The notes under the pieces were generated by a model. It was given only the letters and a program-made list of their open reading frames with translations. It made no database searches and was not told the DNA's origin. This document shows, piece by piece, positions 38,912 through 56,005 of a stretch of 64,000 nucleotides of DNA. The DNA is from Carboxylicivirga linearis. GTDB lineage: Bacteria > Bacteroidota > Bacteroidia > Bacteroidales > Marinilabiliaceae. The number at the start of each line of letters is the position of its first letter. Position 1 is the stretch's first letter. The DNA lies in the NCBI RefSeq assembly GCF_018271995.1, contig NZ_JAGUCO010000017.1:1-64000 (forward strand), given 5' to 3'. The translations under genes and the position numbers were made by a program.

Positions 38912-40201
38912 TTACAATTCAACTCTAACCGAACCTTTCGAACGGATGAATAATTTATGACATTTACCTTCGCCGTAAACGTGCTCTAATGTTTTCACAT
39001 ATGTATCAACCAAGTCTTGAGGAACGAAAGCCTGGATAGTACCCCCGAATCCACCTCCGTGAACGCGCCATGCACCTTTACCTTTCAATACCATTTCACT
39101 CAAGGCTAAACCTAAAGAAACAACCTGCTCATCTTTGTGAACGATATCATAGATATTTTGATTGTACATGTATGAGCTATATCCTGACTCAACTACCATT
39201 TTAAGGAAAGCATCAAAATCGTTGTTTTCCAAAGCAGCCACCTGGTCAACTACACGTTGGTTATCTCCCTGGAAGTGATAAGCACGTAAAATAGCACGGT
39301 CACCTGTTTTGGTGCGTATTTCAGGAATTTTCTCAACAATTTCTTCCAAAGTTGTTTGACGAAGAACTTCTTTACCTAATTCTTTTGCTACCGACTTCAT
39401 TTCAGTTGGTAACGAAGCGTATTCTTCTTGTGAAGCAGGATCATCATGACCACCACCCACATCAGTAATTACTAATGCATAGTTAGTTGATACAAAATCA
39501 AAATCCAATGCTTTTACAATTGGTTTAGCCGGATCTTCAAAGTCGATGGTAATCAATCCACCAACCGAACAAGCTGTTTGATCCATCAATCCACATGGCT
39601 TACCAAAGAAATTATTTTCAGCCCACTGTCCTACAATTGCATTCTCGACAGCGTCTAATTTACCGTCGTTGAATAAGTGACTGATAATAGCACCAATTAA
39701 CACTTCAAAAGAAGCTGATGAACTTAAACCAGAACCTGCTGGCACACGACCTTCAATACAAGCGTCGAAACCGCCAATTGTGTATCCCAGCTCTTTTAAA
39801 CGAGCACTGATACCTTTTACAATAGATCCTGAAGTATAGAATTGTGATTCGTCGATAGATAGATCAGAAAGATCAACCTGGAACTCCGGATAACCTGCTG
39901 ATTTAATTTTAATGATATCGGTACCATTGGCGGCTGCCACTGCGATGTTATCAAGGTTAACAGCACCTGCTAATACACGACCATAGTTATGATCGGTGTG
40001 ATTACCACCAATTTCGGTACGTCCTGGTGATGAAAATAACATAACATCATCCTTACCAAATGTGTCTTTAAATGTTCCCATTAAAGACTCGTATCTTTCA
40101 GCCTGTGATTTTAAAACATCACTTTCAGCTCCGTATAACTCTTTAAAAGCAGCATTATCGCCACCATTAATCTTACCGATTAATTCACTAATTGTTGACA
40201 T
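38912..40201 (-). CDS. galK: Galactokinase
   Basis: 429 residues. Phosphorylates galactose at C1 with ATP. GHMP motifs are complete: FSSPGRTEIGGNHTDHNYGR (galactokinase signature), EGRVPAGSGLSSSASFEVLI (ATP loop), and WRVHGGGFGGTIQAFVP. It is somewhat longer than the 380-400 residues usual for bacterial GalK, with an N-terminal helical extension of about 40 residues. Third gene of the operon, 27 bases after galT. Confidence 0.95.
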   Translation of the reverse strand: MSTISELIGKINGGDNAAFKELYGAESDVLKSQAERYESLMGTFKDTFGKDDVMLFSSPGRTEIGGNHTDHNYGRVLAGAVNLDNIAVAAANGTDIIKIKSAGYPEFQVDLSDLSIDESQFYTSGSIVKGISARLKELGYTIGGFDACIEGRVPAGSGLSSSASFEVLIGAIISHLFNDGKLDAVENAIVGQWAENNFFGKPCGLMDQTACSVGGLITIDFEDPAKPIVKALDFDFVSTNYALVITDVGGGHDDPASQEEYASLPTEMKSVAKELGKEVLRQTTLEEIVEKIPEIRTKTGDRAILRAYHFQGDNQRVVDQVAALENNDFDAFLKMVVESGYSSYMYNQNIYDIVHKDEQVVSLGLALSEMVLKGKGAWRVHGGGFGGTIQAFVPQDLVDTYVKTLEHVYGEGKCHKLFIRSKGSVRVEL

Positions 40202-40228
40202 AATTTATTATTTGAATTTAGTATGTGA

Positions 40229-41275
40229 TTATTTTGATTTATAATGAGTTGTTGGCAAAGCTCGCAAACGTTCTGCAGCTTGCTCTGCTGTAATATCGCG
40301 TTGTGCGTTAGCCATCATTTCGTATCCAACCATAAATTTCTTCACAGTAGCAGAACGTAACAATGGAGGATAAAAATGCATATGAAGATGCCACTCAGGG
40401 TGATCTTCGCCATCGGTTGGCGCCTGATGTATACCAGCCGAATATGGGAATGATACTTCAAACAGATTATCGTACATTACCGTTAGCTTTTTATAGGCAT
40501 CGGCCAAAGCCATTTTTTCATCTTCTGTGAGATCTGTCAATTTAGAAACGGCTCTTTTACTTACGATCATAGCTTCAAAAGGCCAGGTTGCCCAGAAAGG
40601 AACTAAGGCCACAAAGTGATCGTTTTCAACCAAAACACGCTCTTTGTCTTTTAATTCTTCTTCTACATAGTCGCCCAGAAGTGTTTTACCATTGGCATCA
40701 AAATACTCTTTTTGCATTTTTTGCTCTTTAGCTGGCTCAACAGGCACTGAATACTGTCCCCAAATCTGACCATGAGGGTGAGGATTACTACATCCCATTA
40801 TATCACCTTTGTTCTCAAAAATCTGAACATAGTTGATATAATCCAACTTACCTATTTCCTCGTATTCTTTTGTCCACAAATCAACCACCTTTTTAATTCC
40901 TTCCACTTCCATTTCAGGAATGGTAAGATCGTGGCGTGGCGAGAAACAGATTACTTTACAAAAACCTCTCTCACTTACCGCTTTAAATAAGCCTTTCTTT
41001 TCAAACTCGCCTTGAGGAATATCCGGCACCAAAGCGCTAAAATCGTTCTGAAAAACGAAAGTATCTTTGTATTCAGGATTTTTAAATCCCCCGGCTCTTT
41101 CATTACCCGGACATAAGTAACATTTTTCATCGTATTGAGGGCGCTCATCAACAGCTGGTTTTTCAACCTTACCTTGCCAAGGCCTCTTTGTGCGATGTGG
41201 TGATACCAACACCCAGTCACCGTTTAAAGGATTATAACGGCGATGCGAGTGTTCTGTAAATTGAAAAGTATCCAT
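40229..41275 (-). CDS. galT: Galactose-1-phosphate uridylyltransferase
   Basis: 348 residues. Exchanges UMP between UDP-glucose and galactose-1-phosphate. HIT-like fold with the zinc Cys pair in [13 protein letters not shown], the active site [15 protein letters not shown], and the C-terminal [20 protein letters not shown]. Second gene of the operon, 24 bases after the NUDIX regulator. No galE is present in the window. Confidence 0.95.
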
Positions 41276-41299
41276 TTTTATGAGTTTAATATTTATATT

Positions 41300-42010
41300 T
41301 TAAAGTTTTATTGCATTTCTAAATATGGGTTCATACAAGTTACTGTCTTCTATATCTTTAAACCTGAAGTAAAAAGCTCCTTTTTTCGATTCCGACATAT
41401 CTTTTTCTTCCAGTTGTTCCAGCATTTTTAACGATAACACTTTTTTTCTGAAATTGCCTGGATCAAATTGTTTTTGAAAGATAGCATTATACAAATTTCG
41501 AAGTTGCGTAATAGTAAACTTCTCAGGTAATAACTGACGACCAATTAAATTATAAGTGCCCTTTAATCGAAGTTTGTCAAAGGCTATTTTAAACATCTCG
41601 TCATGATCGAAAATTAATGGCGGAACCTCATCTATTGCGAACCATTTAGCACCAAATTTTTCAATCAACTGGTTAGAGTGTTTTTCAACCCTGATTAAAG
41701 CATTAAATACAACAGTAAGCACACTTCCGCCCGGATCACGATCAGGCTTCGAAAACACATGTACTTGCTCCAGGTAAATATCTGTCAATCCGGTAATATA
41801 TTGTAGAACTCTCATGGCTGCGGTCTCTGCCGATTCATCTTCCTGCAACCATCCCCCAATTAGCGACCATTCGCCTTGAGCCGGCGGAATAATACGCTTA
41901 AACAACAATAACTTTAACTGATCTTGTTCATAACCAAAGATAACGCAATCCACAGACACAAAGCGCTTAATCTTTTGATATTGGTTATATAGTTGTTGCT
42001 GATTTTCCAT
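41300..42010 (-). CDS. NUDIX-HTH transcriptional regulator (NrtR/AraR-type) of the galactose operon
   Basis: 236 residues. The N-terminal half is a NUDIX fold (SVDCVIFGYEQDQLKLLLFK, GEWSLIGGWLQEDESAETAA), but the hydrolase box GxxxxxExxxxxREUxEExGU is degenerate: at the site there is AAMRVLQYITGL, so catalysis is probably lost. The C-terminal half is a winged helix (FTITQLRNLYNAIFQKQFDP and GNFRKKVLSLKMLEQLEE). This is the architecture of Bacteroidota sugar regulators such as AraR, which bind a pathway sugar or intermediate (family knowledge). It opens the galactose operon and its start codon abuts a strong palindrome, suggesting autoregulation. Confidence 0.9.
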   Translation of the reverse strand: MENQQQLYNQYQKIKRFVSVDCVIFGYEQDQLKLLLFKRIIPPAQGEWSLIGGWLQEDESAETAAMRVLQYITGLTDIYLEQVHVFSKPDRDPGGSVLTVVFNALIRVEKHSNQLIEKFGAKWFAIDEVPPLIFDHDEMFKIAFDKLRLKGTYNLIGRQLLPEKFTITQLRNLYNAIFQKQFDPGNFRKKVLSLKMLEQLEEKDMSESKKGAFYFRFKDIEDSNLYEPIFRNAIKL

Positions 42011-42014
42011 GCGT

Positions 42015-42041
42015 CAAATATAAAAGTAAAAATTACTTTTA
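42015..42041 (-). promoter_or_regulatory. Palindromic operator and -7 box of the galactose operon
   Basis: 42021-42041 is a perfect inverted repeat, TAAAAGTAA-aaa-TTACTTTTA. It overlaps a minus-strand -7 box, TATATTTG (42022-42015), only four bases before the regulator's ATG, so the transcript would be leaderless or almost so. A further half site, TTACTTTT, lies at 42063-42070. The placement fits repression or activation by the NUDIX-HTH protein; binding is inferred. Confidence 0.6.
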
Positions 42042-42063
42042 AAAATTTTTTAAACGTATTTTT

Positions 42064-42071
42064 TACTTTTG
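42064..42071 (+). promoter_or_regulatory. Putative plus-strand -7 box overlapping an operator half site
   Basis: TACTTTTG fits TAnnTTTG and overlaps the half site TTACTTTT. It would read towards the oxidoreductase at 42242, with a leader of about 160 bases. The same regulator could therefore control both directions, but this rests on motif matching alone. Confidence 0.35.
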
Positions 42072-42241
42072 TAACACTTAAATTTCATCAAACCACACTT
42101 ACTAGTTAAGACAGAAATATTCATCAGACTTGACTACCTAAATTCGATATTTGAAACAGAGCGAAAGATTTAAATAATCAGACTTTTACAAACAAGGAGT
42201 ATTTTGTATATTCATATACTATTACCAACCACCCCATATAA

Positions 42242-43213
42242 ATGAAAGCTAGTTATTATACAAAATACGGCTCATCTGATGTTCTTGAAATAAAAGAAAT
42301 TCCAAAACCTCAACCAGGGGACAAAGAAATATTGGTGCAAGTTTATGCGGCTACAGTTAACAGAACCGACTGCGCCATGCTAACCGCGGAGTTATGGATT
42401 ATGCGCTTATTAACAGGACTTAACTCTCCAAAAAATCCTGTTTTAGGAACTGATTTTGCCGGAATAGTTGTTGATATTGGTAAAAAAGTTACCCGCTTTA
42501 AACCAGGTGACAGAATCTTTGGGTTTGATGATATGGGTTTGAGTTCGCATGCTGAGTATTTATGCCTTTCTGAGAACAAAGCCATCGGACACATTCACGA
42601 ATCTATGTCGTTTGAAACAGCAGCTGCCTTATCCGAAGGCGCCCATTATGCTTATAACTTCATTAATAAGATTGACATCAAAGAAGGTGATCATATATTG
42701 GTTAATGGTGGAACTGGAGCCATAGGATCAGCTGCAATTCAACTACTGGTTCATTATGGAGCTGTTATTACTGCAACCTGCCGAAAAGAACACTCTGATT
42801 TAGTATTACAATTAGGAGCCACCCAAACCATTAACTATGAAGAAGAAGACTTTACACAAAAAGAATTTCAATATAACTATATTTTTGATATGGTTGGTAA
42901 AAGTACTTTTTACAAGTGTAAGAAAATTTTAAAACCTAGGGGTATATACCTTTCATCAGAACTGGGACCTTATGCTCAAAATGCTTTTCTGGCTTTTTGG
43001 GATCTCTTCTCTAATGGAAAAAATGTCAAGTTCCCTTTCCCTTCAAATCCGCAGGCCAGCATTAATCTCATAAACCAATTAGCTAAACAGGAGGCTTTTA
43101 AGCCAGTTATCGATAAAACTTATCCTTTTAATCAAATAAAACAGGCTTTTGAGTATGTTTTATCTGCCAACAAGGTTGGAAATGTAGTTATTAGAATAAA
43201 TACTGACGAGTAG
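42242..43213 (+). CDS. NAD(P)-dependent medium-chain dehydrogenase (quinone oxidoreductase-like), paralogue
   Basis: 323 residues with the same build as 19327-20301: GTDFAGIVVDIGKKVTRFKP, then PGDRIFGFDDMG and the Rossmann motif HILVNGGTGAIGSAAIQLLV. No zinc ligands, so probably an NADPH-dependent quinone or enone reductase. It diverges from the galactose operon and is followed after 99 bases by the TonB receptor gene; whether it belongs with either is unclear. Confidence 0.88.
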   Translation: MKASYYTKYGSSDVLEIKEIPKPQPGDKEILVQVYAATVNRTDCAMLTAELWIMRLLTGLNSPKNPVLGTDFAGIVVDIGKKVTRFKPGDRIFGFDDMGLSSHAEYLCLSENKAIGHIHESMSFETAAALSEGAHYAYNFINKIDIKEGDHILVNGGTGAIGSAAIQLLVHYGAVITATCRKEHSDLVLQLGATQTINYEEEDFTQKEFQYNYIFDMVGKSTFYKCKKILKPRGIYLSSELGPYAQNAFLAFWDLFSNGKNVKFPFPSNPQASINLINQLAKQEAFKPVIDKTYPFNQIKQAFEYVLSANKVGNVVIRINTDE

Positions 43214-43312
43214 TCATACGCCCTTCACTTAACTACTTTGTTTATCAAATAAATAATAATTATTTTTGATAATCCCTGATCGTTGATCAATTACACCTTT
43301 ACAACCAAACCT

Positions 43313-45541
43313 ATGAACAGAACATTATTCTTATATTGTTTTTCTATACTTATTTTCACCCACTACTCTTACGGCCAAAATCAAAATAATCAAGATTTTA
43401 CATATAATTATTCATTAAAAGAACTTGCTGAACTTAAAATTACAACAGGATCGATAAAAGAAGAAAATCGCCGATCTGCGCCATCCAACCTTACTGTTAT
43501 CACACCTCAAATGATTGAGGAACGAGGGTATAAAACGCTGGTTGATATTTGCCAGGATATTCCGGGATTTGACTTTATGATGTATAACGATGGCGGAGGC
43601 GAATATCCTACCTTCAACATGAACAGAGGAATGGGAGAAGTGGGAAATTCAGAAATTTTGGTGATGGTTGATGGCATCATTCAAAACCACATTAGTTTTA
43701 ACTGGTCAATGTTGTGGACATATGAGAATATTTTAATTGATATCGACCGCATTGAGATTATTCAAGGTCCGGGTTCGGTAATGTATGGTGCTCAGGCATT
43801 TTCAGGAATAATACATATTGTTACCAAAAAGAATTTTAAGGGAATACATGCCAATGCCTTTTATGGATCACATTCAACCAGGGGTTTGGAAGTATTTGCC
43901 GGAACTACAATTGGTAAAGAAACTAACCTTTCTCTTGCTCTTCATCAATATCACTCATTGGGCGATAATGGGCATGATAGATACGATCCGGGTAGTTATT
44001 TCAAAAATATCAGATATCCCTCCTCACTTATCTATAACTATAACGCAGCAGGCGAATTTGTTACCAACACTTCAAATCCCAGAGGTGGCACATACTTAAA
44101 TGATGGATTCAACACACAGCAAGATAATGTTGCCATTCGGTCTAAACTATCATATAAAAACATAGAAGTAGGATTTTTCCTATCTGATTATACGCGAGCT
44201 TACGGCTCTGCTGTTGTGGCTTACGAGTATGACTTAAACGACAAGGAAAACACAACTCATTACCAAAACTATCATATTTACGCCAGTTACACTGCTCAAA
44301 TCAATGCCAAGCTATCTTTAAAATCTGACTTGGTATATCGAGCAACCAATGTTATACCAGATGGAGGTTTCAAATATTTATATCAGTTTCCGGATTTACG
44401 AAAAAATTATGCTGGTTATAGCAATCAAACTTATTTTGAAGAGCGTTTACTTTACGATTTGAATGCCAACAACGACCTTTCATTTGGATTAAAATTCAGC
44501 CTCAGCAATGCCAATAATAGAATTGTTTCATTGGGCAATTACCCCAATGAAAGATATTCAACTGACTGGTCGTGGGATATCGCAGCTGATGGCGGAGGAC
44601 TTAACCAAACAAAAGATTATCCCAACTTTTGGGTAAAGGAAGTTGCTCTCTTTGCCCTTTGGGATTATACTTTCAACAATAAATTATCCAGTTCTGCCGG
44701 TATTCGTTACGATTACAATTCCGACTTTGGTAGTATTGTTAATCCACGACTGGCACTTAATTATAATCCATCTGCTTATTTAAGTACTAAATTGATGTAC
44801 GGAAGAGCTTTCAGGCAGCCTTCTATTTTTGAGCTATTTAGCGAATTCAGAGGAAACCCAAATCTGGTTCCGCAAAACATTCAAACAATTGAATTACAAA
44901 TGGCAAGTCTTTTTAATGATGATAAACTGGCCATTAAAATGAATGTATATTACTCGCTTATAAATGATTTAATTGGCCAGGTAGAAGATCCTGCAATGCC
45001 GTCCGGCGAACGTTACGAAAATATTGGTAAGCAAAAAATAGGAGGTATTTCAGCCACAGCCGATTATCAGATAAGCAAATCTATCCGTTTATATTCTAAT
45101 TACAATTTAATAAATGGCATTAATAACAAAGGAGCCTTTTACGCTATTGATAGAACAGCCACACACAAAGTTAATGCTGGGCTAAATATCAAGCTTTTCG
45201 ATGGCCTATTAACCAGTGACCTTAGAATGAATTATGTAGGCAAAAGAAAAGCTCCGGAATCAAATAGTTGGCTGCAGACCTACGAGAATGGTTATGCCCC
45301 TTCCTACACCAAAGCCAATTGGGTACTTTCGTACCAGTTATCACCTCAACTACTGGGACAAATAATTATAAATAATGCGTTTAACACACAGTATTATGGT
45401 GTTGGTCACGAGTCAGGTTCTGGTTTTATCGACGACTATAACTACCTAAGCAATGTCAATCCTGATGGAGTCATTCCGGCTTATCATCCCCAACCTGGAA
45501 GAACTGTTTTTGTGAATCTTATCTACAAGTTTAACCCTTAA
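43313..45541 (+). CDS. TonB-dependent receptor opening a signalling cluster
   Basis: 742 residues. Signal peptide (MNRTLFLYCFSILIFTHYSY then GQ); no CarboxypepD_reg domain. It has a short N-terminal extension, a plug (SNLTVITPQMIEERGYKTLV, VMVDGIIQNH, IDRIEIIQGPGSVMYGAQAF) and a beta barrel ending FVNLIYKFNP. ATG 43313 is chosen over an upstream TTG at 43283. The plug style resembles siderophore or cobalamin receptors rather than SusC. The next gene begins 14 bases after its stop and encodes a YfiR-domain kinase, so receptor and sensor are probably made together. Confidence 0.92.
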   Translation: MNRTLFLYCFSILIFTHYSYGQNQNNQDFTYNYSLKELAELKITTGSIKEENRRSAPSNLTVITPQMIEERGYKTLVDICQDIPGFDFMMYNDGGGEYPTFNMNRGMGEVGNSEILVMVDGIIQNHISFNWSMLWTYENILIDIDRIEIIQGPGSVMYGAQAFSGIIHIVTKKNFKGIHANAFYGSHSTRGLEVFAGTTIGKETNLSLALHQYHSLGDNGHDRYDPGSYFKNIRYPSSLIYNYNAAGEFVTNTSNPRGGTYLNDGFNTQQDNVAIRSKLSYKNIEVGFFLSDYTRAYGSAVVAYEYDLNDKENTTHYQNYHIYASYTAQINAKLSLKSDLVYRATNVIPDGGFKYLYQFPDLRKNYAGYSNQTYFEERLLYDLNANNDLSFGLKFSLSNANNRIVSLGNYPNERYSTDWSWDIAADGGGLNQTKDYPNFWVKEVALFALWDYTFNNKLSSSAGIRYDYNSDFGSIVNPRLALNYNPSAYLSTKLMYGRAFRQPSIFELFSEFRGNPNLVPQNIQTIELQMASLFNDDKLAIKMNVYYSLINDLIGQVEDPAMPSGERYENIGKQKIGGISATADYQISKSIRLYSNYNLINGINNKGAFYAIDRTATHKVNAGLNIKLFDGLLTSDLRMNYVGKRKAPESNSWLQTYENGYAPSYTKANWVLSYQLSPQLLGQIIINNAFNTQYYGVGHESGSGFIDDYNYLSNVNPDGVIPAYHPQPGRTVFVNLIYKFNP

Positions 45542-45555
45542 TAAAAACTTCCGCT

Positions 45556-47526
45556 ATGAGAAATCTACTTGCCATCCTTATAATTATCTTTTCATCCACT
45601 TTAGTACAAGCACAAATAAATAAAGCAAATGCCACTGGGGCATACATTTATAATTTTGCAAAACTCTCTTCATCACCTAAACAAAATCAATTTTCAACCT
45701 ATCCCATTGTGGTTGTTTCAAATAACCAATTATTGATTGAGGAGTTTAAAAAGATGGCGCAAAACAATAAAGTTAATGGTAAACCTATTCAACTTACAAT
45801 CGACAACAATGCTACAAGTAATTTTGAAGAAGCCTGCCTTGTCTTTATCAGTTCTGACATGAATGATCATTACAGATCTATTTTTAATCAAACCAAAAAT
45901 AGCGAAGTACTTCTTGTAAGTGAAAATTACAAAGACAAAACAAGCATTATGCTCAACCTTTATGAGTCTTCGGATCAAACAATGAAATTTGAAATGAACA
46001 AGGGTAACATTTACGATAGAAACATAACTATTAGCGATGAAATTTTATTGATGGGTGGTAACATTGTTGATTTAACAGAATTATACATTGAGACTCAAAA
46101 AGAATTACAAAGTTCGGATAGTAAAATAGAAGAAATTGAAGATAGCTTATCAACCTTAAGTTCCGAAATTGGGAAGAATCAGCAACAAATAGCTAAGCAG
46201 GATCAAGCTCTTGAACAACAGAAAGAAATAATTAGCAAACAGAAACAAGAGCAACAAAAGCTAACCTCCAACATTTCGGAACAAAAACAACAATTAATAT
46301 CTGTTCAGGATGCTTTTACGCAAAATGAGGCAAAAATGCGCTTGTATAACGACAGCCTGATTCATTCTCGCGAAATTCTTCAATCGTTCCAGAATCAGAT
46401 AGCTGAAAACAACCAAATTCTGCTCGATCAACAAGATGAAATAAAAAACAATAAAGAGGTACTATCGCAAAAAAATACAGTGATTAGAAAACAACGTATT
46501 GTGGTAGCTTTTTTTGTGGTTGGAATTACCGTTAACCTCTTACTACTTATTTTATTACTAAAGAGTTTAAAAGATAAAAAAAGAAAAAACAAACAACTAA
46601 GAAAGCAAAAGGCAGAACTGGCAAAACAAAATGAAGTTTTGGAAAAGAACAGCAATTTAATTGAATCAATGATGGATGAATTGAGCGACAACAATGAAGA
46701 GCTCACCACCATGCTGGAAGAAAACAAGCGCATGCAAAACAAATTGGTTCAATCCGAAAAAATGGCTTCTTTGGGTGTATTGTCTGCAGGTATAGCCCAC
46801 GAAATAAATAATCCAATTAACTTCGTTTACGCTGGAATCAACAGTCTTTTGCGCGATTTTGAAGACATTAAACCGGTAATTGACGAGGTAAGTAAACTAA
46901 ATGTCGACAACAATAATCTCAATGAAAAAATTGAGCTGATAAAAAAACTGAAAGAAGAAAATTACTTTGATGAAGCCATGGAAGCAATTCCAGAAATTAT
47001 CAGCGACATAAAATTAGGTGCCGACCGAACAGCAGAAATAGTGAAAGGACTTCGCAACTTCACACATATGGACTCTGACAATCAGGAAAAGCTAAATATT
47101 AACGAAGGACTCGATACTTCGCTCTTGCTACTAAAAAACAAATACAAAAATCACATTGAAATAGTAAAAGACTACAGCCAAAACATTCCTGATCTTTTAT
47201 GCTTTCCCGGTAAAATAAATCAGGCTTTGCTGAATATTCTGGCCAATGCAGTAGATGCTATTAAAGACAGAGGAACAATTTGGATAACCACAAATCATAC
47301 CGATGCTTTTATAGAAATTATAATCAGAGATAATGGTTACGGTATTCCGGAAGAAATCCAAAGTAAGATATTTGATCCCTTTTTCACAACCAAATCGGTT
47401 GGTGAAGGTACGGGTTTAGGATTAGCCATAACTTTTGGCATAATTGGCGAACACAATGGTACTATAGAAGTTAATTCTAAAGATGGTGAAGGAACTGAAT
47501 TCATCATTCAACTACCCATTCAATAA
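45556..47526 (+). CDS. Histidine kinase with N-terminal YfiR (DUF4154)-like periplasmic domain
   Basis: 656 residues. Signal peptide to VQAQ; then a periplasmic domain (about 22-172) whose opening, KANATGAYIYNFAKLSSSP, and continuation (YPIVVVSNNQ, ACLVFISSDMN, GNIYDRNITISDEILLMGGNI) fit the YfiR/DUF4154 fold. Then a long coiled coil (about 175-310), one membrane helix (about 313-336), another coiled coil, HisKA with His415 in GIAHEINNPINF, and a HATPase domain (ANAVDAI, DNGYGIPEEI, GEGTGLGLAITFGI). YfiR in Pseudomonas is a separate periplasmic repressor of a diguanylate cyclase; here it is fused to a kinase. Ten bases separate its stop from the receiver ATG, so it is in an operon. Confidence 0.85.
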   Translation: MRNLLAILIIIFSSTLVQAQINKANATGAYIYNFAKLSSSPKQNQFSTYPIVVVSNNQLLIEEFKKMAQNNKVNGKPIQLTIDNNATSNFEEACLVFISSDMNDHYRSIFNQTKNSEVLLVSENYKDKTSIMLNLYESSDQTMKFEMNKGNIYDRNITISDEILLMGGNIVDLTELYIETQKELQSSDSKIEEIEDSLSTLSSEIGKNQQQIAKQDQALEQQKEIISKQKQEQQKLTSNISEQKQQLISVQDAFTQNEAKMRLYNDSLIHSREILQSFQNQIAENNQILLDQQDEIKNNKEVLSQKNTVIRKQRIVVAFFVVGITVNLLLLILLLKSLKDKKRKNKQLRKQKAELAKQNEVLEKNSNLIESMMDELSDNNEELTTMLEENKRMQNKLVQSEKMASLGVLSAGIAHEINNPINFVYAGINSLLRDFEDIKPVIDEVSKLNVDNNNLNEKIELIKKLKEENYFDEAMEAIPEIISDIKLGADRTAEIVKGLRNFTHMDSDNQEKLNINEGLDTSLLLLKNKYKNHIEIVKDYSQNIPDLLCFPGKINQALLNILANAVDAIKDRGTIWITTNHTDAFIEIIIRDNGYGIPEEIQSKIFDPFFTTKSVGEGTGLGLAITFGIIGEHNGTIEVNSKDGEGTEFIIQLPIQ

Positions 47527-47535
47527 TTGCGAAAT

Positions 47536-47907
47536 ATGAGATACAAAGTACTATATGTTGATGACGAACAAAGTAACCTGAGAATTTTCAAAGATACTTT
47601 CAGGCGCGATTTTGAGGTTTTTATTGTTGATTCAGGAGCTAAGGCTATTGAGCTAATTAGTAAAACAACTATTGATCTGGTAATAACCGACCAACGAATG
47701 CCCGAAATGACCGGCGTTGAATTATTAAGAGAAATAACCCATCGTTTTAATGATATACCTCATAACCGTCTTATTTTATCGGGATATGCTGAGGACTCTG
47801 AAATTCAAGAAGCGTTTAACAATTATCATCTTTCAAAATTCATAAGCAAACCCTGGGATTACGAAGATCTTAAAAAAGTTATAATTCAATCTATGGAAGA
47901 AAATTAA
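47536..47907 (+). CDS. Single-domain response regulator (receiver only)
   Basis: 123 residues, CheY-like. VLYVDDEQSN supplies the acid pocket, Asp52 in VITDQRMPEM is the phosphorylation site, Ser/Thr position at LILSGYAED, Lys in FISKPWDYE. No output domain. ATG 47536 is preferred to TTG 47527. It sits right after the YfiR-kinase and is the likely acceptor of its phosphate; the next gene starts with a closely similar receiver, indicating duplication. Confidence 0.92.
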   Translation: MRYKVLYVDDEQSNLRIFKDTFRRDFEVFIVDSGAKAIELISKTTIDLVITDQRMPEMTGVELLREITHRFNDIPHNRLILSGYAEDSEIQEAFNNYHLSKFISKPWDYEDLKKVIIQSMEEN

Positions 47908-47960
47908 TGCTATCACTCCATTAACTCCTTATTTAATTATTATCTTTAAACAACCAAACT

Positions 47961-49097
47961 ATGACTCTAACTGCAACTATGGAAAAGTACAACATTTTAT
48001 ACGTTGACGACGAACCCAGCAACTTAAGAATATTCAAAGATACTTTCCGCAGAAGCTTTAATATTCATATAGCTACCTCGGCTAAAGAAGGTATTCAAAT
48101 TCTGGACAACCACAATATTGATTTAATTATTAGCGACCAGCGCATGCCGGAAATGACAGGCGTTGAATTATTAAAATACTCTTTTCAAAAATACCCTAAA
48201 ACAAACCGTATTTTATTAACTGGCTATTCCGACATCAAAGCAATTGAAGAGGCCATCAACCAGGCTCGGGTTTTTCAGTACGTTCAAAAACCCTGGAGCG
48301 AAAAAAGTCTACTCGAGATTATTGGCGATGCTCTGCGTGTGCAGGAGCTGGAAGAAGAGAATGAACGCCAAAAGGAAGCCCTGAAGATAGCCAAGGAAAA
48401 AGCCGAAAAGAGCGACCAGTTGAAAACCGAGTTTATTTACAACTTAACCCACGAAATACGAACTCCAATGAATGGAATCATTGGGTTTGCTTCTTTGCTT
48501 GAAAACGATGACATTGACAAATCAGATAGAAAGCATTATTTAAAAATAATACAAAACAGTACCTCTCAATTACTCCGTATTATTGATGACATACTTGAAA
48601 TTTCACAACTAGTAACCAAGCAAGTTAATGTTCAAAAATCAGAGTTTAACCTAAACGATCTATTAAAAGAATTACATTCATTATTTAACCTCAAAATTAA
48701 AGATAGCAAACTACAGCTTTTTTTGAACTGTGATAGTTTTAATACGGATGAAGTAATAACTACAGACCGCGCCAGACTTTATACTATTTTGAGCAATTTA
48801 CTTGATAATGCCATTAAATTTACCAACGAAGGACATATCGAGCTTAGTTGTATAAAAGAAAATGATACCATTAAAATTTTTGTAAGAGATACAGGCATTG
48901 GTATTCCGGAAAATAGTATTCAAACCATTTTCCAACGCTTTTCACAAGCCGAAAAAGATGCTGTTAATAAATCCGGAGGATTAGGACTGGGATTATCTAT
49001 AGCACAAGAAAACGCGAAGCTCATCAACGGAGAGTTATCTGTGGAATCAAAAATTGGTGAAGGATCTACTTTTTGCCTTACTCTGCTTCAGAAATAA
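47961..49097 (+). CDS. Receiver-histidine kinase hybrid (REC-HisKA-HATPase)
   Basis: 378 residues. An N-terminal receiver with Asp59 in LIISDQRMPEM, followed by a coiled coil, HisKA with His164 in YNLTHEIRTPMNGIIGFASL, and a HATPase domain (LLDNAIKFTNEG, DTGIGIPENS, GLGLGLSIAQENAKL). No membrane segment, so cytoplasmic. The order is opposite to usual hybrids, which suggests that phosphorylation of the receiver controls the kinase. It shares SNLRIFKDTFRR and DQRMPEMTGVELL with the lone receiver upstream. A second start at 47979 is possible. Last gene of the signalling cluster, ending in a terminator. Confidence 0.92.
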   Translation: MTLTATMEKYNILYVDDEPSNLRIFKDTFRRSFNIHIATSAKEGIQILDNHNIDLIISDQRMPEMTGVELLKYSFQKYPKTNRILLTGYSDIKAIEEAINQARVFQYVQKPWSEKSLLEIIGDALRVQELEEENERQKEALKIAKEKAEKSDQLKTEFIYNLTHEIRTPMNGIIGFASLLENDDIDKSDRKHYLKIIQNSTSQLLRIIDDILEISQLVTKQVNVQKSEFNLNDLLKELHSLFNLKIKDSKLQLFLNCDSFNTDEVITTDRARLYTILSNLLDNAIKFTNEGHIELSCIKENDTIKIFVRDTGIGIPENSIQTIFQRFSQAEKDAVNKSGGLGLGLSIAQENAKLINGELSVESKIGEGSTFCLTLLQK

Positions 49098-49130
49098 AAA
49101 AAGGCAAATCGTAACTGATTCGCCTTTTTT
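49098..49130. terminator. Bidirectional terminator
   Basis: AAAAAGGCAAATC pairs with GATTCGCCTTTTTT with one mismatch, loop GTAACT. It serves the plus-strand signalling cluster and, read the other way, the GH43 gene on minus. Confidence 0.85.
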
Positions 49131-49149
49131 TGGTGTTGCCTTTTGACAA

Positions 49150-51207
49150 TTATTTTTTGATTACTTTCCTAAATGCAAAGCCCTCTTTTCCTATTACCTT
49201 AACAAGGTATATGCCGGAATTATATCCACTTAGATCGCAGTTAAACTCAATTTTTTGTTCTTTATAACTGTTAACTTTCATGCCCGCACTGTTATATATA
49301 TCAACACTAATTAATTGATCAGCCTTTACGGTTAAATTACTGTTGGTAGGATTAGGAAACACCTGAAGATCAATCCAGTCTTCAGTGTTTATACCGGTAG
49401 ATGTAGAGAAGGATTGAGTAATTTTAATAGTTTCCCTCTGTCCGCTTTTTGATGTAATAGTAATTCTGTTCGTTCTTTCCTCTGATAAAGTATTTGCGGT
49501 TGCGGTAATAGTTAATGCACTACTCCCCGTCCCTTCGAGAGGCGAAACACTCAACCAAGAATCATCTGTTACCCTTATGCTCCACGATCCATTACTCTCA
49601 AGCTCAACAGAAGTACAAATGGTATCCTGGTGCGTAAAGTCCAAATCGGAAACTGAACTTATCAACGTTTCATCAAACGATTCTACATACCAACGCTGGC
49701 AGTCATGATTGGTATTAGGCCATAACTTAACCTGATAATCCGAAGTATACGCATAAGGAATCTCCAGTAAATTATCCTGAGCTGAGGGATAAACTAATGT
49801 TTTCCCGTTGGGTGATTGTGCTACTCTAAATTTCTGATTGATGGATCCCGTATAAGAATCTGTTAATCTCAATATATCACCATTATTATCCCCGGCTGCT
49901 TCTATATAAAGTGTTTTATCATCATAACTCCTGATGGTATATTCACCTGTTCCTAATGAGGAAAACAACCATTTTTGGGTATCATACAGATCATTTTCAG
50001 CATACTGATACAACACTCTGCCATCAGCAGAAGAATGACCTTGTACATCCAGCATTTTATTACTATTCGCGTTCTTCAAAGTATAATAACCAGGATCAAG
50101 ATAATTCATCGATATTGAAGGCCATCCGTCAGCACCCCATTTTAGGAATCCCATACCTAAAGTAGGTCCACCTTTATAATCGGCAGCCTCACTTGGATAA
50201 TATCCATTAGGTGAATAATAATGAAAACTCACATGATCAACACCATTCTCTCGATACACCCCAATGTGACCAGGTCCAAAATACCGATCCTCTTCTCCCC
50301 TTGAATCATTATGCCTTAACACCACTGTTCCTCCACTGCTGGTACCGTAAGCAACCATGTTCCTTCCAATTTTATCAACAAAGGGTCCCTTAGGACTTGT
50401 TGATCGTCCCATAACCACATAATAGGTACTGGCTATACCATTGCAACAACCACCTTTATTATAAAAAAGGTAATAGTAACCGTCTCTATATATCATACAA
50501 GCTCCCTCACCTTCGGCATAGCTATTACTATTAGGACCTGTCCAAGAATTAGCGATTGTAGTCCCGGGCAAGTTACCTTCATAACTTTTAGGCTTACCCG
50601 AAACAGAATCAATTTCTGTAACAACCATTCCTCGCGAATTAAACGAACCATATACCATCCATATTTTGTTATCATGTCCTCGTGATAATGCGGGATCGAT
50701 TGCGTTTAAGGCTAAACCAGGTTGATATGACCAAATCCCAAGAAATCCAACATCAGTCCAACCGTAATCAGCATCCTCAGGATTAAGACTCTTAGTGGTT
50801 ACACAACCAATGGTTGATGTCATAGTACCCCATTCCGAACAAGAATAATACAAATAGTACTGATCATTCATATAGATTATATCAGGCGCCCAGAAACCAC
50901 CATGAAATACAGGATTTCCATCACCATCGGTTGCACCGTTTACATAATCGTTTATCCAATCTGGAAATTCGGTCTTCGTAAATGGAGATGGTCCTTGTTG
51001 CCAGGTCACCAAATCATATGAATACATGGCATGAATTCCGTCGCCGGTGCCAAATACCCAGTATTTATCACCACACTTCACAATACTGGAAGGGTCATGT
51101 ATACCTGCTGGCCAGGATTGGGCTCCAACCTTTGAAACACCCATTAAACCGACAAATAACAGGATCGTAATCAGTATTTTTTTAGATGTAAAAGTTAATT
51201 CTTTCAT
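49150..51207 (-). CDS. GH43 arabinanase-like enzyme with ricin-type, BACON and T9SS domains
   Basis: 685 residues. Signal peptide to VGAQ. The five-bladed propeller of GH43 holds the catalytic set: base Asp38 in GIHDPSS, pKa-tuning Asp171 in ALNAIDPAL, acid Glu234 in AEGEGACMIY; GPGH binds the usual metal. The likely reaction is cleavage of alpha-1,5-arabinan or arabinosyl side chains of pectin. A ricin-type carbohydrate-binding module follows (about 370-505, YYTLKNANSNKMLDVQG), then a BACON-like domain (about 515-605, WSIRVTDDSWLSVSPLEGTG), and a T9SS sorting tail (LQVFPNPTNSNLTV ... FRKVIKK). Secreted by T9SS to the surface. It lies 187 bases downstream of the PL11 gene, same strand. Confidence 0.92.
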   Translation of the reverse strand: MKELTFTSKKILITILLFVGLMGVSKVGAQSWPAGIHDPSSIVKCGDKYWVFGTGDGIHAMYSYDLVTWQQGPSPFTKTEFPDWINDYVNGATDGDGNPVFHGGFWAPDIIYMNDQYYLYYSCSEWGTMTSTIGCVTTKSLNPEDADYGWTDVGFLGIWSYQPGLALNAIDPALSRGHDNKIWMVYGSFNSRGMVVTEIDSVSGKPKSYEGNLPGTTIANSWTGPNSNSYAEGEGACMIYRDGYYYLFYNKGGCCNGIASTYYVVMGRSTSPKGPFVDKIGRNMVAYGTSSGGTVVLRHNDSRGEEDRYFGPGHIGVYRENGVDHVSFHYYSPNGYYPSEAADYKGGPTLGMGFLKWGADGWPSISMNYLDPGYYTLKNANSNKMLDVQGHSSADGRVLYQYAENDLYDTQKWLFSSLGTGEYTIRSYDDKTLYIEAAGDNNGDILRLTDSYTGSINQKFRVAQSPNGKTLVYPSAQDNLLEIPYAYTSDYQVKLWPNTNHDCQRWYVESFDETLISSVSDLDFTHQDTICTSVELESNGSWSIRVTDDSWLSVSPLEGTGSSALTITATANTLSEERTNRITITSKSGQRETIKITQSFSTSTGINTEDWIDLQVFPNPTNSNLTVKADQLISVDIYNSAGMKVNSYKEQKIEFNCDLSGYNSGIYLVKVIGKEGFAFRKVIKK

Positions 51208-51335
51208 ATATGAATTTTAGTTACAAAATAACAGCTCAGCAAAAAAACAAAATGTATTGATTAAAAAAAATGACAGTTAAATAATTACAAAATTATCCTC
51301 CTTAAATATCAATTTTGAATCAAATAGGATTAAAA

Positions 51336-51377
51336 AAAACGCCGTAACTAAATGTAAAATTAAAGTTACGGCGTTTT
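51336..51377 (-). terminator. Terminator after the PL11 gene
   Basis: Perfect 14-bp stem AAAACGCCGTAACT (51336-51349) / AGTTACGGCGTTTT (51364-51377) in T-rich surroundings. It separates the PL11 and GH43 genes, so they are probably transcribed separately or with attenuation. Confidence 0.9.
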
Positions 51378-51394
51378 TCTTATGTATTATTGAG

Positions 51395-54300
51395 TTATTC
51401 TGTTATTAATATTTTTTGCTTACTCATACCCTTACTGGTATAGATACAAACAAAGTGTAATCCTGCAGATAGCTCTGAAGCATCAATATGGATTCGTGAT
51501 GCTCCTACATCCTTCATTTTATATACAACTTCTCCTTTCAGATCCACAATCTCAACACGATCAATAATAGTATTATCTGTTTGTTCAATATTCAAAATTC
51601 CACTTGTTGGATTTGGGTATAACTTTACAGCACTAACACTCAAATCATCAATTGCCGTTGTACCTGTAACAGAAATTATACCTTCAGAATTCAACTTCGA
51701 TAAATCCCACTCTAATCCTTCACCCGGACTAGCAGGTGAGATACCAGCGAAACTACCTTCAATGGTAGAGGCATCAAACAATTTAAAACTATCACCAGCT
51801 TCTAATGCTGCGCCGTTTAATTCTGAAATATTTAATGTACCGGCAAGCGTTAAAGTATTACCAGATACGAATTGATCATTATCGCTTCCATTCTTGTCCA
51901 ACTCAAAATAAAGAACTGATCCGGCATGGAAGGTAACTGATCTTTGACAGGTTAATGTACCAACGCCGTCGTTACCCGGTGCAACTATTGAACCATCATA
52001 AAAAGTTATGTTCCCATTTAAATTCCCTTCACCAGACAGAGTACCATTACCATACACTCTTAAAGATCCGGATAAGGTATTGGATCCTTTACGCACTCCA
52101 CCTGATAAGACAGAAACAGTTCCGCTTACACTTCCTGATCCATCTAATGTAGCTCCGTTTCTGATCATTAAAGAACTGGTTCCTGTGGCACTTCCACCAT
52201 TATTTGCCACTACAAGTGTTCCACCGTAAACATTTGTGCTTCCACTGTAATCATTAGCATTGGTTAACGTCCAGCTTCCTTCACCATATTTATTGATAGT
52301 TGACGATCCGGTAAATAATCCCCGGAATATAGCATCGTTATTATTATATCCAACGTTATAGGTGGCTCCCGACATTGTGGCACCTGCCTCACCGCTTAAG
52401 GCTCCGAATGCCATTGTCCCTCCTGCAATATTATAAACATAAAGGTCAGAACTTACATGTACAGAAGCCTTTCCAAAGCCGTAGTTGTTATTAATACGGA
52501 AGTCTCCTCCATCACCATCAGTTGTAACATTAATGGTGCCTTCAAAATTAGACCAGTCACCATTTAAATCATTTCTAATCCAGGGTGAATACAAATTCAA
52601 GGTTCCTTTTCCGAACAACTTACCGGTTAATGAACTTCTACTGTCTAAACGCAATGTTCCTCTTTCTCCTTCCGGAACTACAATATGCCATCTACAACCA
52701 TCGGTGTATGAATAACTATTATCTAACATTGCCAGAGTTCCACCCTTTAAAGTAAGCGTATCTCCTAAACCATTAATATTAGCAACATCTTCCAATAGTT
52801 GTATAGTACCGGCCTCAATTACTGTACCTGCATGATTATTGACTGTCTCAAGACACAATGTACCACTACCTTTTTTAATCAAGCGACCAGAGCCGGTTAG
52901 GCTACCTTTTACAATTATACTACCTCCATTAACATTAATGGTTCCATCATTCTCACCTAATGTAATACTACGGTCTGTAGTTACTTCAGAGAAAGCTGCA
53001 TATTGTAATTCACCTCCGTTAATGACTAAATTGGAAGCATCAGCTGACGATGAACCGATAGGCGAATTATATCCTCCATTGGCCAATGAACTTACACGAA
53101 GTATACCACCCTCAATAATGGTTGCGCCTGTATAACTATTTGAATTTAAAATAGCGAACATACCGTCTCCTCTCTTTGTAAAATTGGCATCTCCGGCAAT
53201 TTTACCCGATCCTGAAAGTATCATTGTATTATCCGACTCACAAAGAAAATCGCTTACTGCATATTCCCCTTTAATTTCTATACTTCTCTGAATAGCCGTA
53301 TTATCAAACACCACGGAATCTTCTCCTAAGAAATAATCCTGTACTCCCTGGTTATCCCAGTTAAGCGTATTAAATAAATCCCAGGTTTTATTTACACTAC
53401 CTTTCCATACTACTGTTCCTGGCAATCGGGTATCCGCAACTTCTAACTTAATTTCTCCCGATTCAATAATAAGTTCAAACGGTAATCCAGGTAATCCTTC
53501 AATCTTAATATCTTCTATACTTCCGTTAAAGGCACCTGTAAACTTGGCCAATATATATGTACCTGCAGTTAATTTCCCATCTAAACGATTAATATTAATA
53601 GTAACGTTACCGTTTACATTAATATCTCCGTCAACTACAATAATATCATTAAGCTTATCTACCGCTTCAATGTCGTCTGACAAATCCATGTAAACAGTAG
53701 TTTTATCACCCAGACTTAAATGCTGATTTATAAAGATACTATCCGCATCCTCTTTTGCATTACTCACAATCAACTCTCCATAAGTCTCAACATCAATTCC
53801 TTTTTTAAACAAACCTGAACCAGCCACAGTAGCAAACCTTTTAGCATAAACCGGTCCATTCAGCTCTCCTGACAATGTAAGTTGTCCATCCCAAACTCTG
53901 GTAATTCCGGTGAAGGTATTAGCTGTTTCGATGGTTAAATTACCTTGACCTGCTTTGGTTAAATCAGTCTCCCCAGAAATAAAACCTTCTCCTGTAAATG
54001 TAAAATCATTTGGACTAATAACCCGAATATCTTCAGGAACCAATTCTCCAGCCAGTTCCACCAAAGATTGACTACTTGAAATATCAAACAACAGGCTATC
54101 TCCGTTTGAGAATAATATTTCACTACCATCCTTCTTCCATGAAGCTGAACTTAAATCCCAAACTCCACTAGTAAACACCAGCTGTCCGGGAATTAATATT
54201 GGTGATGGAGGAATTGAATCCATATCATGTCCAATAAAAAAAGATGGATGAGGTGGTTGGTTATATGAATTAGGCTGCCATGCAATTGCAGCTCTGTATT

Positions 54301-56005
54301 GAGGATCGTGCATTAAAGTATAGATCTTTTCTGTTGTTGTATAAGGAGTAGAATAAATACGCAACGCACTATTATCTGATGTTCTCCAGATGGCTTCTTC
54401 ACGCCAGTCACCTAAAATATCAGCACTTAACGCAGGATTACCTTTGGTCCAGTTATCAGATAAAGTTCCTTCGGCATATAACAACTGATTATTGGCTCCA
54501 TTATTATATTTTGTAATTGTTCCAACACCATGATCATCATACCATGCATGATCTAACATTTCACGTGTTACATCACCATCCCACCAGATAAAAAAGTTCA
54601 TTGATCCGGGAGCTGCTAAATCTGTTATTTCTTTTCCTGTTGAACTTAAGAAAGGAAAGCCTGATGGTCCCCACATTTCCATTCCTGGATAATCAGGTGT
54701 GATATCAGCTGCACCACAGCGTCCCATATCTCTTCCTATATTTTTGTAAAACAGAATCTCGCCGGTACCTGCATCGCGGTAATTACCACCAGCATAATTC
54801 TCCAAACATCCAAAAAATTCCAGCCCTTTTCTATTAGGATTAATATCGGCTAAGTGCTGAGCATCGCCATGTCCCAATCCTGTAGAATACAATCCGGTAC
54901 CATCATTATTAATACACATTGAACCATACATGATTTCATCACAACCATCTCCGTCAACATCACCTTGGGTAAGGTTATGATAACCTTGCTGTGCATAGTC
55001 CGGATTATTATTGGAGTCAAAGTTCCATTTTTTTGTCAGCGCATTATTTTCAAATGAGAAGGCCTCTAAAACAATACGCTCGTATATACCACGGCTAATA
55101 ACAATATCAGGATTAACCCCATCGAGATAGGCAACTGTGAACATACATTTAGTTGAACGGTGACCACCATCATCGCGTCCCCAATCGGTAATATTACCCC
55201 TGGGAATATAATTGGTACGTGCCATTTCCTCTCCTGTTTCACCATTTAAAACAGATAGATAATCGGGTCCTGCGGTCCGATATCCCACACTTGAAATTGA
55301 ATATCTGTAATTGATTACACCATCACCATCAGCATCACCAATATCATTACCAACACCATCAACAAAACCGTCAGACGTTCGCAATGCTACTTCAGCTTTA
55401 CCATCTCCGTCAAAATCGTATACCAAAAAGTTAAATTCAACATTGTTATAAATATTAGGCCCCATATTAACGGCCCAGAGTAAAGTACCATCAAGCTTAT
55501 AAGCCTCTAAATAATGATAATTACTAATGCTTGCATCACCCTTGGCCAATCGCTTTACAATAATTTCATATTGCCCGTCTCCTGTTAAATCACCAACCGA
55601 AGCATCATTCAATTCATAGGTATCAAATCCTCCGTCAATTTCTCTAACAGGCACATCTAAGTATGTTTGCGCCCACACTTCACATGTTTCACTCTCGGTT
55701 TGTTCTTCTCCTTTAATAACCAACTTTAACTCATAGTTTGAGCTAGTTGCTCCAGAAGCATCAAGATAATTAGTGGCTCCATCAATAGGAGTGCTATTTA
55801 TCTTTGCACCATTGCGATACAAATTATAACTAACATCTTTTTGTTCCCATCCAAGTACTCTCCAACTTACTAAGACTCCTCCACTAGTTTTTACGGCTAA
55901 TAAACCGTGATTCAACTTCTCCATTTTCCGCTGGGAAAAACCCTGAGAAGAAAACACAAATAACACTAATAGAATAGTCCAAATCTGGTAAAAATGTCTT
56001 TTCAT
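51395..56005 (-). CDS. PL11 rhamnogalacturonan lyase-like protein with autotransporter-type repeats and T9SS tail
   Basis: 1,536 residues. Signal peptide to GFSQ. A fibronectin-like beta domain (about 25-115) precedes an eight-bladed propeller (about 116-625) of the PL11 YesW/YesX type, rich in calcium loops (VYDFDGDGKAEVALRTSDG, GDVDGDGCDEIMYGS) and ending QPNSYNQPPHPSFFIG. It would cleave rhamnogalacturonan-I by beta-elimination. From about 640 to 1430 come many short beta-helix-like repeats: GNLTIETANTFTGITRVWDG, GMFAILNSNSYTGATIIEGG, GSWTLTNANDYSGSTNVYGG, the autotransporter-associated beta-strand motif. The C-terminus is a T9SS tail (VKLYPNPTSGILNIEQ ... KQKILITE). The repeats may act as a stalk. 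Own terminator downstream. Confidence 0.9.
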   Translation of the reverse strand: MKRHFYQIWTILLVLFVFSSQGFSQRKMEKLNHGLLAVKTSGGVLVSWRVLGWEQKDVSYNLYRNGAKINSTPIDGATNYLDASGATSSNYELKLVIKGEEQTESETCEVWAQTYLDVPVREIDGGFDTYELNDASVGDLTGDGQYEIIVKRLAKGDASISNYHYLEAYKLDGTLLWAVNMGPNIYNNVEFNFLVYDFDGDGKAEVALRTSDGFVDGVGNDIGDADGDGVINYRYSISSVGYRTAGPDYLSVLNGETGEEMARTNYIPRGNITDWGRDDGGHRSTKCMFTVAYLDGVNPDIVISRGIYERIVLEAFSFENNALTKKWNFDSNNNPDYAQQGYHNLTQGDVDGDGCDEIMYGSMCINNDGTGLYSTGLGHGDAQHLADINPNRKGLEFFGCLENYAGGNYRDAGTGEILFYKNIGRDMGRCGAADITPDYPGMEMWGPSGFPFLSSTGKEITDLAAPGSMNFFIWWDGDVTREMLDHAWYDDHGVGTITKYNNGANNQLLYAEGTLSDNWTKGNPALSADILGDWREEAIWRTSDNSALRIYSTPYTTTEKIYTLMHDPQYRAAIAWQPNSYNQPPHPSFFIGHDMDSIPPSPILIPGQLVFTSGVWDLSSASWKKDGSEILFSNGDSLLFDISSSQSLVELAGELVPEDIRVISPNDFTFTGEGFISGETDLTKAGQGNLTIETANTFTGITRVWDGQLTLSGELNGPVYAKRFATVAGSGLFKKGIDVETYGELIVSNAKEDADSIFINQHLSLGDKTTVYMDLSDDIEAVDKLNDIIVVDGDINVNGNVTININRLDGKLTAGTYILAKFTGAFNGSIEDIKIEGLPGLPFELIIESGEIKLEVADTRLPGTVVWKGSVNKTWDLFNTLNWDNQGVQDYFLGEDSVVFDNTAIQRSIEIKGEYAVSDFLCESDNTMILSGSGKIAGDANFTKRGDGMFAILNSNSYTGATIIEGGILRVSSLANGGYNSPIGSSSADASNLVINGGELQYAAFSEVTTDRSITLGENDGTINVNGGSIIVKGSLTGSGRLIKKGSGTLCLETVNNHAGTVIEAGTIQLLEDVANINGLGDTLTLKGGTLAMLDNSYSYTDGCRWHIVVPEGERGTLRLDSRSSLTGKLFGKGTLNLYSPWIRNDLNGDWSNFEGTINVTTDGDGGDFRINNNYGFGKASVHVSSDLYVYNIAGGTMAFGALSGEAGATMSGATYNVGYNNNDAIFRGLFTGSSTINKYGEGSWTLTNANDYSGSTNVYGGTLVVANNGGSATGTSSLMIRNGATLDGSGSVSGTVSVLSGGVRKGSNTLSGSLRVYGNGTLSGEGNLNGNITFYDGSIVAPGNDGVGTLTCQRSVTFHAGSVLYFELDKNGSDNDQFVSGNTLTLAGTLNISELNGAALEAGDSFKLFDASTIEGSFAGISPASPGEGLEWDLSKLNSEGIISVTGTTAIDDLSVSAVKLYPNPTSGILNIEQTDNTIIDRVEIVDLKGEVVYKMKDVGASRIHIDASELSAGLHFVCIYTSKGMSKQKILITE

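Follow-up and report, generated by a model that had tools for sequence, protein, structure and literature searches.

We analysed a 64,000-nucleotide stretch of DNA from the marine bacterium Carboxylicivirga linearis (assembly GCF_018271995.1, contig NZ_JAGUCO010000017.1, positions 1 to 64,000; hereafter the window), which carries an operon of four plus-strand genes encoding a TonB-dependent receptor (TBDR), a histidine kinase with a YfiR-type periplasmic head, a lone receiver and a receiver-first kinase (Table 1). As an earlier note made from the letters of this DNA (the original prediction) had described, the genes are separated by short gaps of 14, 9 and 53 bases and are closed by a terminator, a stem-loop with a T-run (the 56-base stretch of this region folds at -16.2 kcal/mol, z -3.06). 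The site TTTG-N20-TATTTTTG upstream corresponds to the Bacteroidota-type promoter consensus; because this consensus is matched four times across the window against 2.26 expected, the site by itself is no evidence for a promoter. A Pfam scan of the operon proteins matched neither a DNA-binding nor a GGDEF domain, in agreement with the earlier claim that the operon has no output of either kind.

Table 1 Features of the operon (positions in the window, all on the plus strand)
Feature	Position	Strand	Details
Promoter-like site TTTG-N20-TATTTTTG	43237..43268	+	Ends 44 bases ahead of the first start codon
TBDR gene	43313..45541	+	742 aa; signal peptide
Pre-plug motif SLKEL	43412..43426	+	Residues 34-38
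Plug domain	43469..43810	+	Pfam
YfiR-headed histidine kinase gene	45556..47526	+	656 aa
Periplasmic YfiR (DUF4154) head	45634..46050	+	Kinase residues 27-165
Periplasmic coiled-coil stalk	46051..46509	+	About residues 166-318, ~153 residues; proline-free; hydrophobic period 3.5
Single transmembrane helix	46510..46560	+	About residues 319-335; placed by hydrophobicity only
His415 codon, likely phospho-acceptor	46798..46800	+	Conservation
HATPase_c domain	47212..47520	+	Pfam
Lone receiver gene	47536..47907	+	123 aa; Asp52
Receiver-HisKA-HATPase gene	47961..49097	+	378 aa; Asp59; no hydrophobic membrane segment found
Intrinsic terminator	49095..49132	+	Stem-loop with T-run

The first gene product is an outer-membrane TonB receptor, as had been proposed. 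It matches the Pfam Plug (2.7e-16) and TonB_dep_Rec barrel (5.8e-29) families, and its predicted model, of moderate quality (mean predicted local distance difference test (pLDDT) 70.3, predicted template modelling score (pTM) 0.76), has FepA, BtuB and Cir as its best fold matches in the PDB. These two domains were the only Pfam matches at E 0.01 or better, and an STN domain was not among them. The stretch ahead of the plug reads SLKELAELKITTGS, in which a classical TonB box is not obvious by eye.

The periplasmic sensor of the kinase, predicted to be YfiR-like, was searched against DUF4154 (PF13689) and matched it with an E-value of 1.3e-15 (58.2 bits versus a cut-off of 24.9). Furthermore, a profile built from 15 YfiR domains retrieved six chain sequences of P. 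aeruginosa YfiR (best 4zhu, 1.1e-15), with no other match below E 0.2; in the profile alignment, Phe145, Glu146 and Ile152 of the kinase correspond to Phe162, Glu163 and Ile169 of P. aeruginosa YfiR, which passages of two papers (PMC3375315, PMC4887326) place in a patch implicated in YfiN and YfiB binding. The head is confidently predicted in the kinase model (mean pLDDT 75.8). A fold search with the whole model returned only kinases and related ATPases and, since the head fell outside the coverage, is uninformative on it, so that the identity of the head rests on sequence profiles. Within the cytoplasmic part, His415 is invariant across alignments of 11 and of 9 kinases. Pfam matched neither CHASE8 nor GGDEF in this kinase, and no DNA-binding domain in it or in the receiver-kinase. 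The third protein is a Response_reg domain and the fourth is Response_reg-HisKA-HATPase_c; Asp52 and Asp59 sit in DQRMP motifs of two receivers that are 46% identical and can be regarded as duplicates, as had been noticed. The features of a two-component phosphorelay are present, namely a kinase with a conserved histidine and HATPase_c, and receivers with aspartates.

The neighbourhood of the operon was compared across 195 annotated stretches flanking YfiR or receptor matches; some stretches overlap, and many had been selected for their match. The order TBDR, YfiR-kinase, receiver and receiver-kinase on one strand was found at 11 loci including the window, the others being L036 in the same genus, L037, L038 and L041 in the same family, and L135, L136, L139, L140, L189 and L314; the gene-neighbourhood search proposed with the original prediction thus returned a conserved order of TBDR and YfiR-kinase. 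In several of these loci the fourth protein has an additional receiver at its C-terminus. An unfused version, with a separate YfiR gene between the TBDR and the kinase, occurs in L114, L116, L123 and L125, and two other genomes of the genus (L039, L040) contain a pair of TBDR and YfiR-kinase that has another kinase core and lacks receivers.

The link between YfiR and TBDR genes extends beyond this operon. Two samples were examined: an even Bacteroidota sample of 392 genomes, of which 41 have DUF4154 (own genome included) and in which all 56 matches over the cut-off outside the own genome were read, and a sample drawn from the class to which an uncultured Pseudomonadales genome belongs (the gamma sample; 184 genomes, 30 with DUF4154), in which 30 of 50 matches over the cut-off were read and the centre genome G539 was left out. 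As controls, we used 68 non-TBDR genes at least four open reading frames away from any YfiR in the same loci. A TBDR was the immediate same-strand neighbour of YfiR in 38/56 Bacteroidota cases (33 of them upstream) and 18/30 gamma cases, compared with 2/68 controls (Fisher 9e-16 and 6e-10, respectively). Similarly, YfiR was fused to, or lay directly before, a kinase or GGDEF gene in 32/56, 23/30 and 1/68 cases, and both associations together were seen in 26/56, 13/30 and 0/68. In the own genome, standalone YfiR genes are paired with TBDRs and have no adjacent kinase (L076:5566-11683 and L078:5701-8558, on contigs 93 and 148), and the relatives L079, L080, L082, L084 and L087 have arrays of two or three such pairs. 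The receptors of these pairs repeat the SxEEL motif ahead of the plug. Other YfiR genes lie near genes for a carboxyl transferase and an M42 peptidase (by Pfam in L120 only, with open reading frames of similar sizes in L118 and L122).

In TBDRs linked to YfiR, the stretch immediately ahead of the plug mostly has the form LSLEEL-x4-VTSASK (the SLxEL motif). In the window receptor this motif reads SLKEL and forms a short helix at residues 35-39 of the predicted model, and its Leu38 is invariant in both 11 and 30 aligned TBDRs. A motif profile trained on 36 YfiR-linked TBDRs of Bacteroidota gave at least 11.4 bits for all 13 linked gamma TBDRs with a plug match. In nearer relatives, at least 5 bits were reached by 10/12 TBDRs beside a fused gene and 21/23 beside a single YfiR. 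The same score was reached by 6/8, 8/8 and 4/5 TBDRs (three groups) that lie in YfiR loci without being immediate YfiR neighbours. The own genome has 70 plug matches, 30 of which came with the loci; none of the 29 TBDRs used as the unlinked set reached 5 bits (maximum 3.9), and as these controls are mostly SusC-like by their pre-plug sequence (by eye), part of this contrast reflects the subfamily.

In a reverse search of the 392 genomes with the motif and the start of the plug, DUF4154 lay within 6 kb in 29/58 motif-covering matches versus 2/48 plug-only matches (Fisher 8e-8), with 9/13 for matches of intermediate coverage; these counts rest on 119 of the matches listed, the four from the own genome and those after genome G317 being left out. 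The idea that the motif is an exclusive mark of YfiR linkage was rejected, since the other 29 of the 58 motif-covering matches had no DUF4154 match within this distance. The motif marks a group of TBDRs associated with YfiR, though not exclusively. Twenty loci without DUF4154 near the receptor match were read, and three of them (L234, L239 and L240) showed an adjacent YfiR by our own profile; none was seen in the other 17. These three YfiR genes beside motif-bearing TBDRs were found through the motif and are absent from the DUF4154 genome-search list. In L237, the 169-amino-acid open reading frame after the TBDR may be another YfiR.

In the window kinase, the YfiR head is joined to the membrane helix by a long stalk, and the predicted model has one continuous helix (residues 173-336) running from the head into the membrane segment. 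Among the first 59 fused proteins, the stretch from head to membrane helix has a median length of 154 residues (interquartile range 151-158, range 137-180); in 18 of the 19 whose genes have a same-strand adjacent TBDR it measures 146-158 residues, the exception being 180. Because this set was mostly gathered by stalk-containing queries (45 of the 59, window included, with one such query and others with a second), the measurement was redone with a head-only query on 20 stretches, which represent all the long-frame matches listed that had not yet been measured (L313 held no fused protein and L315 held two). The resulting 20 proteins had a median of 153.5 residues, with 11 of them between 142 and 157, and ranged from 109 to 194. 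Seven fused proteins found by DUF4154 alone (L135-L140 and L178) have stalks of 146-157 residues, and that of L314, whose gene has a TBDR next to it on the same strand, measures 151. The notion of the stalk as a ruler of fixed length was therefore withdrawn, in view of the span of the head-only set. What stands is a long, nearly proline-free coiled coil: the 79 stalks together contain 3 prolines in 12,240 residues, 56 of them are 142-158 residues long, and hydrophobic residues repeat with a period of 3.5 in the stalks of the first set. A helix rises 1.5 Angstrom per residue, and 153 residues would thus span about 23 nm, close to the periplasm width usually quoted; this length would allow the head to reach the outer membrane, though it is not constant in all groups.

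The 59 fused heads were thinned by hand to 29, and a tree was built from these and 76 standalone heads whose domain match covers at least 110 residues. All 29 fused heads lie on one side of one branch (Shimodaira-Hasegawa-like approximate likelihood ratio test 99), which suggests a single fusion event behind the YfiR-stalk proteins, within the limits of a short alignment in which many forks are open. The outputs of ten fused proteins scanned were a SpoIIE phosphatase (eight: L042, L044, L045, L049, L051, L058, L059 and L068), a guanylate cyclase (L070) and a hybrid kinase; among the nine SpoIIE and cyclase fusions, a TBDR lies next door only in L051, divergently.

The genes directly after standalone YfiR genes point to a known module. 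Twelve such genes were chosen by hand for a domain scan, and CHASE8 was matched at E<1e-4 in 11 of them (seven Bacteroidota kinases and four gamma transducers; nine of the 11 above the Pfam cut-off), mostly followed by HAMP and then by a kinase, GGDEF or GGDEF-EAL output. In contrast, CHASE8 was listed in none of 12 fused proteins scanned. Among the E. coli proteins used as references, DgcN/YfiN matches CHASE8 at 1.3e-33, YfiR has a DUF4154 match, and YfiB belongs to the OmpA family. Since CHASE8 follows standalone YfiR as it does in DgcN/YfiN, the unfused operons are YfiR-YfiN cores with a TBDR gene in the place of yfiB, and the window system is of the same kind, with CHASE8 gone and YfiR fused via the stalk to a membrane helix.

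Several signalling systems are comparable. In signalling of the FecA/FecR/FecI type, a TBDR informs the cytoplasm by way of its N-terminus in the periplasm; here, STN was not matched in the TBDR, and neither FecR nor a sigma factor was found among three neighbours scanned. In the hybrid two-component systems of Bacteroidota, a DNA-binding domain is fused to the kinase, unlike the window kinase and receiver-kinase, in which none was matched. The closest relative is YfiBNR of P. aeruginosa (YfiR-DgcN-YfiB in E. coli), which shares with the window a YfiR with a conserved C-terminal Phe-Glu patch, an inner-membrane transducer and a proposed outer-membrane partner, and shares with the unfused relatives the CHASE8 domain as found in DgcN. 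It differs in having the OmpA-like lipoprotein YfiB instead of a TBDR and a GGDEF instead of a kinase output, whereas the window has YfiR fused to a transducer without a CHASE8 match; no OmpA domain was matched by Pfam among seven window proteins scanned. YfiR-YfiN cores with histidine kinase and GGDEF-EAL outputs, and frequently without yfiB, have been described in the main text of Malone et al. 2012 (PMC3375315), and the YfiR-YfiN[PAS] cores with kinase outputs presented there, mostly lacking yfiB, form the module family that includes the window system. Thus, the part of the original prediction in which YfiR feeds a kinase stands in that a YfiR-type head is fused to a kinase by Pfam, but the action of YfiR on a kinase is not new in itself. 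Neither "TonB" nor "fused" appears as a word in that main text. QseG-QseE, as portrayed in sections of PMC12691602, resembles the proposed system in that an outer-membrane protein directly activates a histidine kinase across the periplasm; QseG is a lipoprotein rather than a TBDR, and those sections do not mention YfiR.

The genes around the operon are of other kinds. Upstream (38912-43213) lie galactokinase-like and galactose-1-phosphate uridylyltransferase-like genes (by eye), together with a NUDIX/NrtR-type regulator and a zinc dehydrogenase (Pfam), and open reading frames of nearly equal sizes (348, 236 and 321 amino acids) also precede the operon in L036. Tail to tail with the operon, the minus strand at 49150-56005 encodes a GH43-ricin-BACON protein with a Por secretion sorting domain (Pfam), as well as a 1536-amino-acid open reading frame.

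On balance, we think it probable that the four proteins constitute a phosphorelay that reads an outer-membrane receptor, in which the TBDR would contact the YfiR head at the outer membrane and thereby switch the kinase. The kinase would form a dimer, whose coiled-coil stalk would keep the YfiR head close to the periplasmic side of the outer membrane. When ligand binds or TonB drives a movement, the N-terminal SLKEL segment of the TBDR would change and may then dock on the conserved patch of YfiR, like YfiB in P. aeruginosa. Such docking would alter the stalk, upon which the kinase would autophosphorylate on His415 and pass phosphate to the lone receiver (on Asp52) and to the receiver-kinase (on Asp59), with the output presumably located elsewhere; the kinase may in this way read uptake at the outer membrane directly. 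In relatives with a separate YfiR, this free protein would shuttle from the inner-membrane CHASE8 transducer to the TBDR and back, and the fusion would have put a tether in place of this shuttling. The wider proposal is that SLxEL-bearing TBDRs pass their state to YfiR, which controls kinases, cyclases and phosphatases as a general route of TonB-receptor signalling, and that in one old clade YfiR came to sit on a periplasm-long stalk, allowing a single inner-membrane protein to read the receptor; we place this a little short of an even chance.

A number of observations weigh against the receptor-reading phosphorelay. An immediately adjacent same-strand TBDR is lacking for 18/56 and 12/30 YfiR genes of the two samples (some of them at contig ends, where the neighbour is invisible), and beside the 59 fused genes a TBDR is present on the same strand in 19, divergently in 4 and not at all in 36, five of which are at a contig or stretch end. 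Among the relatives, 2/12 linked TBDRs beside fused genes and 2/23 beside single YfiR genes score below 5 bits, and both the SusC-like character of the control receptors and the motif-covering matches without nearby DUF4154 reduce the weight of the motif. The stalk varies from 109 to 194 residues among the 20 further proteins, and in two gamma fusions that lie close to a TBDR it measures 180 and 194. The twelfth gene after YfiR, a GAF-PAS protein in L126, has no CHASE8. The kinase model has a pTM of only 0.35. Finally, strong sensor matches (E<1e-50) were found in only 3/13 other genomes of the genus, two of them with the other kinase core and no receivers, so that the locus is patchy.

In the main rival explanation, the TBDR is a regulated target rather than the input, the YfiR head senses a periplasmic ligand, redox state or envelope stress, and the relay would only control how the uptake gene beside it is expressed. 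Two-component genes often adjoin transporters under their control; the absence of a DNA-binding domain from the operon decides neither way. P. aeruginosa YfiR has, moreover, been reported to be redox-responsive and a weak binder of small molecules (parts of PMC4887326). We nevertheless regard a regulated TBDR as unlikely, if deserving of serious attention, in that YfiR-TBDR pairs occur even without a neighbouring kinase (the tandem pairs), most linked TBDRs carry a special periplasmic motif, and the outputs beside or fused to YfiR include cyclases and phosphatases.

A clearly improbable explanation is that the stalk gauges the membrane gap or outer-membrane integrity, much like YfiB or RcsF, and that the TBDR serves only for docking. 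In favour of this, the stalk has roughly the length of one periplasm; against it, this length differs between fused proteins and the YfiR-TBDR link is found also without any stalk. Precedents come from the proposal that YfiB reads the spacing between outer membrane and peptidoglycan (passages of PMC3375315) and from the dependence of Rcs signalling on periplasm size (passages of PMC5736177). Co-inheritance as a cassette without functional contact, which would fit the patchiness within the genus, is very improbable given that the same partners accompany YfiR, fused or not, in both samples, which come from different phyla, and that the sampled fused heads all lie on one side of one branch.

The individual parts of the system are known families, to which our analysis adds the receptor partner, the pre-plug motif, the direct fusion of YfiR to a kinase and the long stalk. 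Among the matches listed from the open-licence literature, no title or abstract opening joined YfiR or DUF4154 with a TonB receptor, and none presented the TBDR-YfiR pairing as a general input, the pre-plug motif or the stalked fusion. YfiB-less YfiR-YfiN systems have been known since 2012, and the section of that report that describes them (PMC3375315) does not name their outer-membrane input. The TBDR with its recognisable motif, found in samples from two phyla, is a candidate for this input. If so, a receptor phosphorelay of the kind proposed for C. linearis may offer an alternative to the FecR/sigma route of TBDR signalling and would represent a little-studied mode by which outer-membrane receptors communicate with the cell interior, of which the stalked fusion is a readily testable form, with one protein, one partner, one motif and one length.

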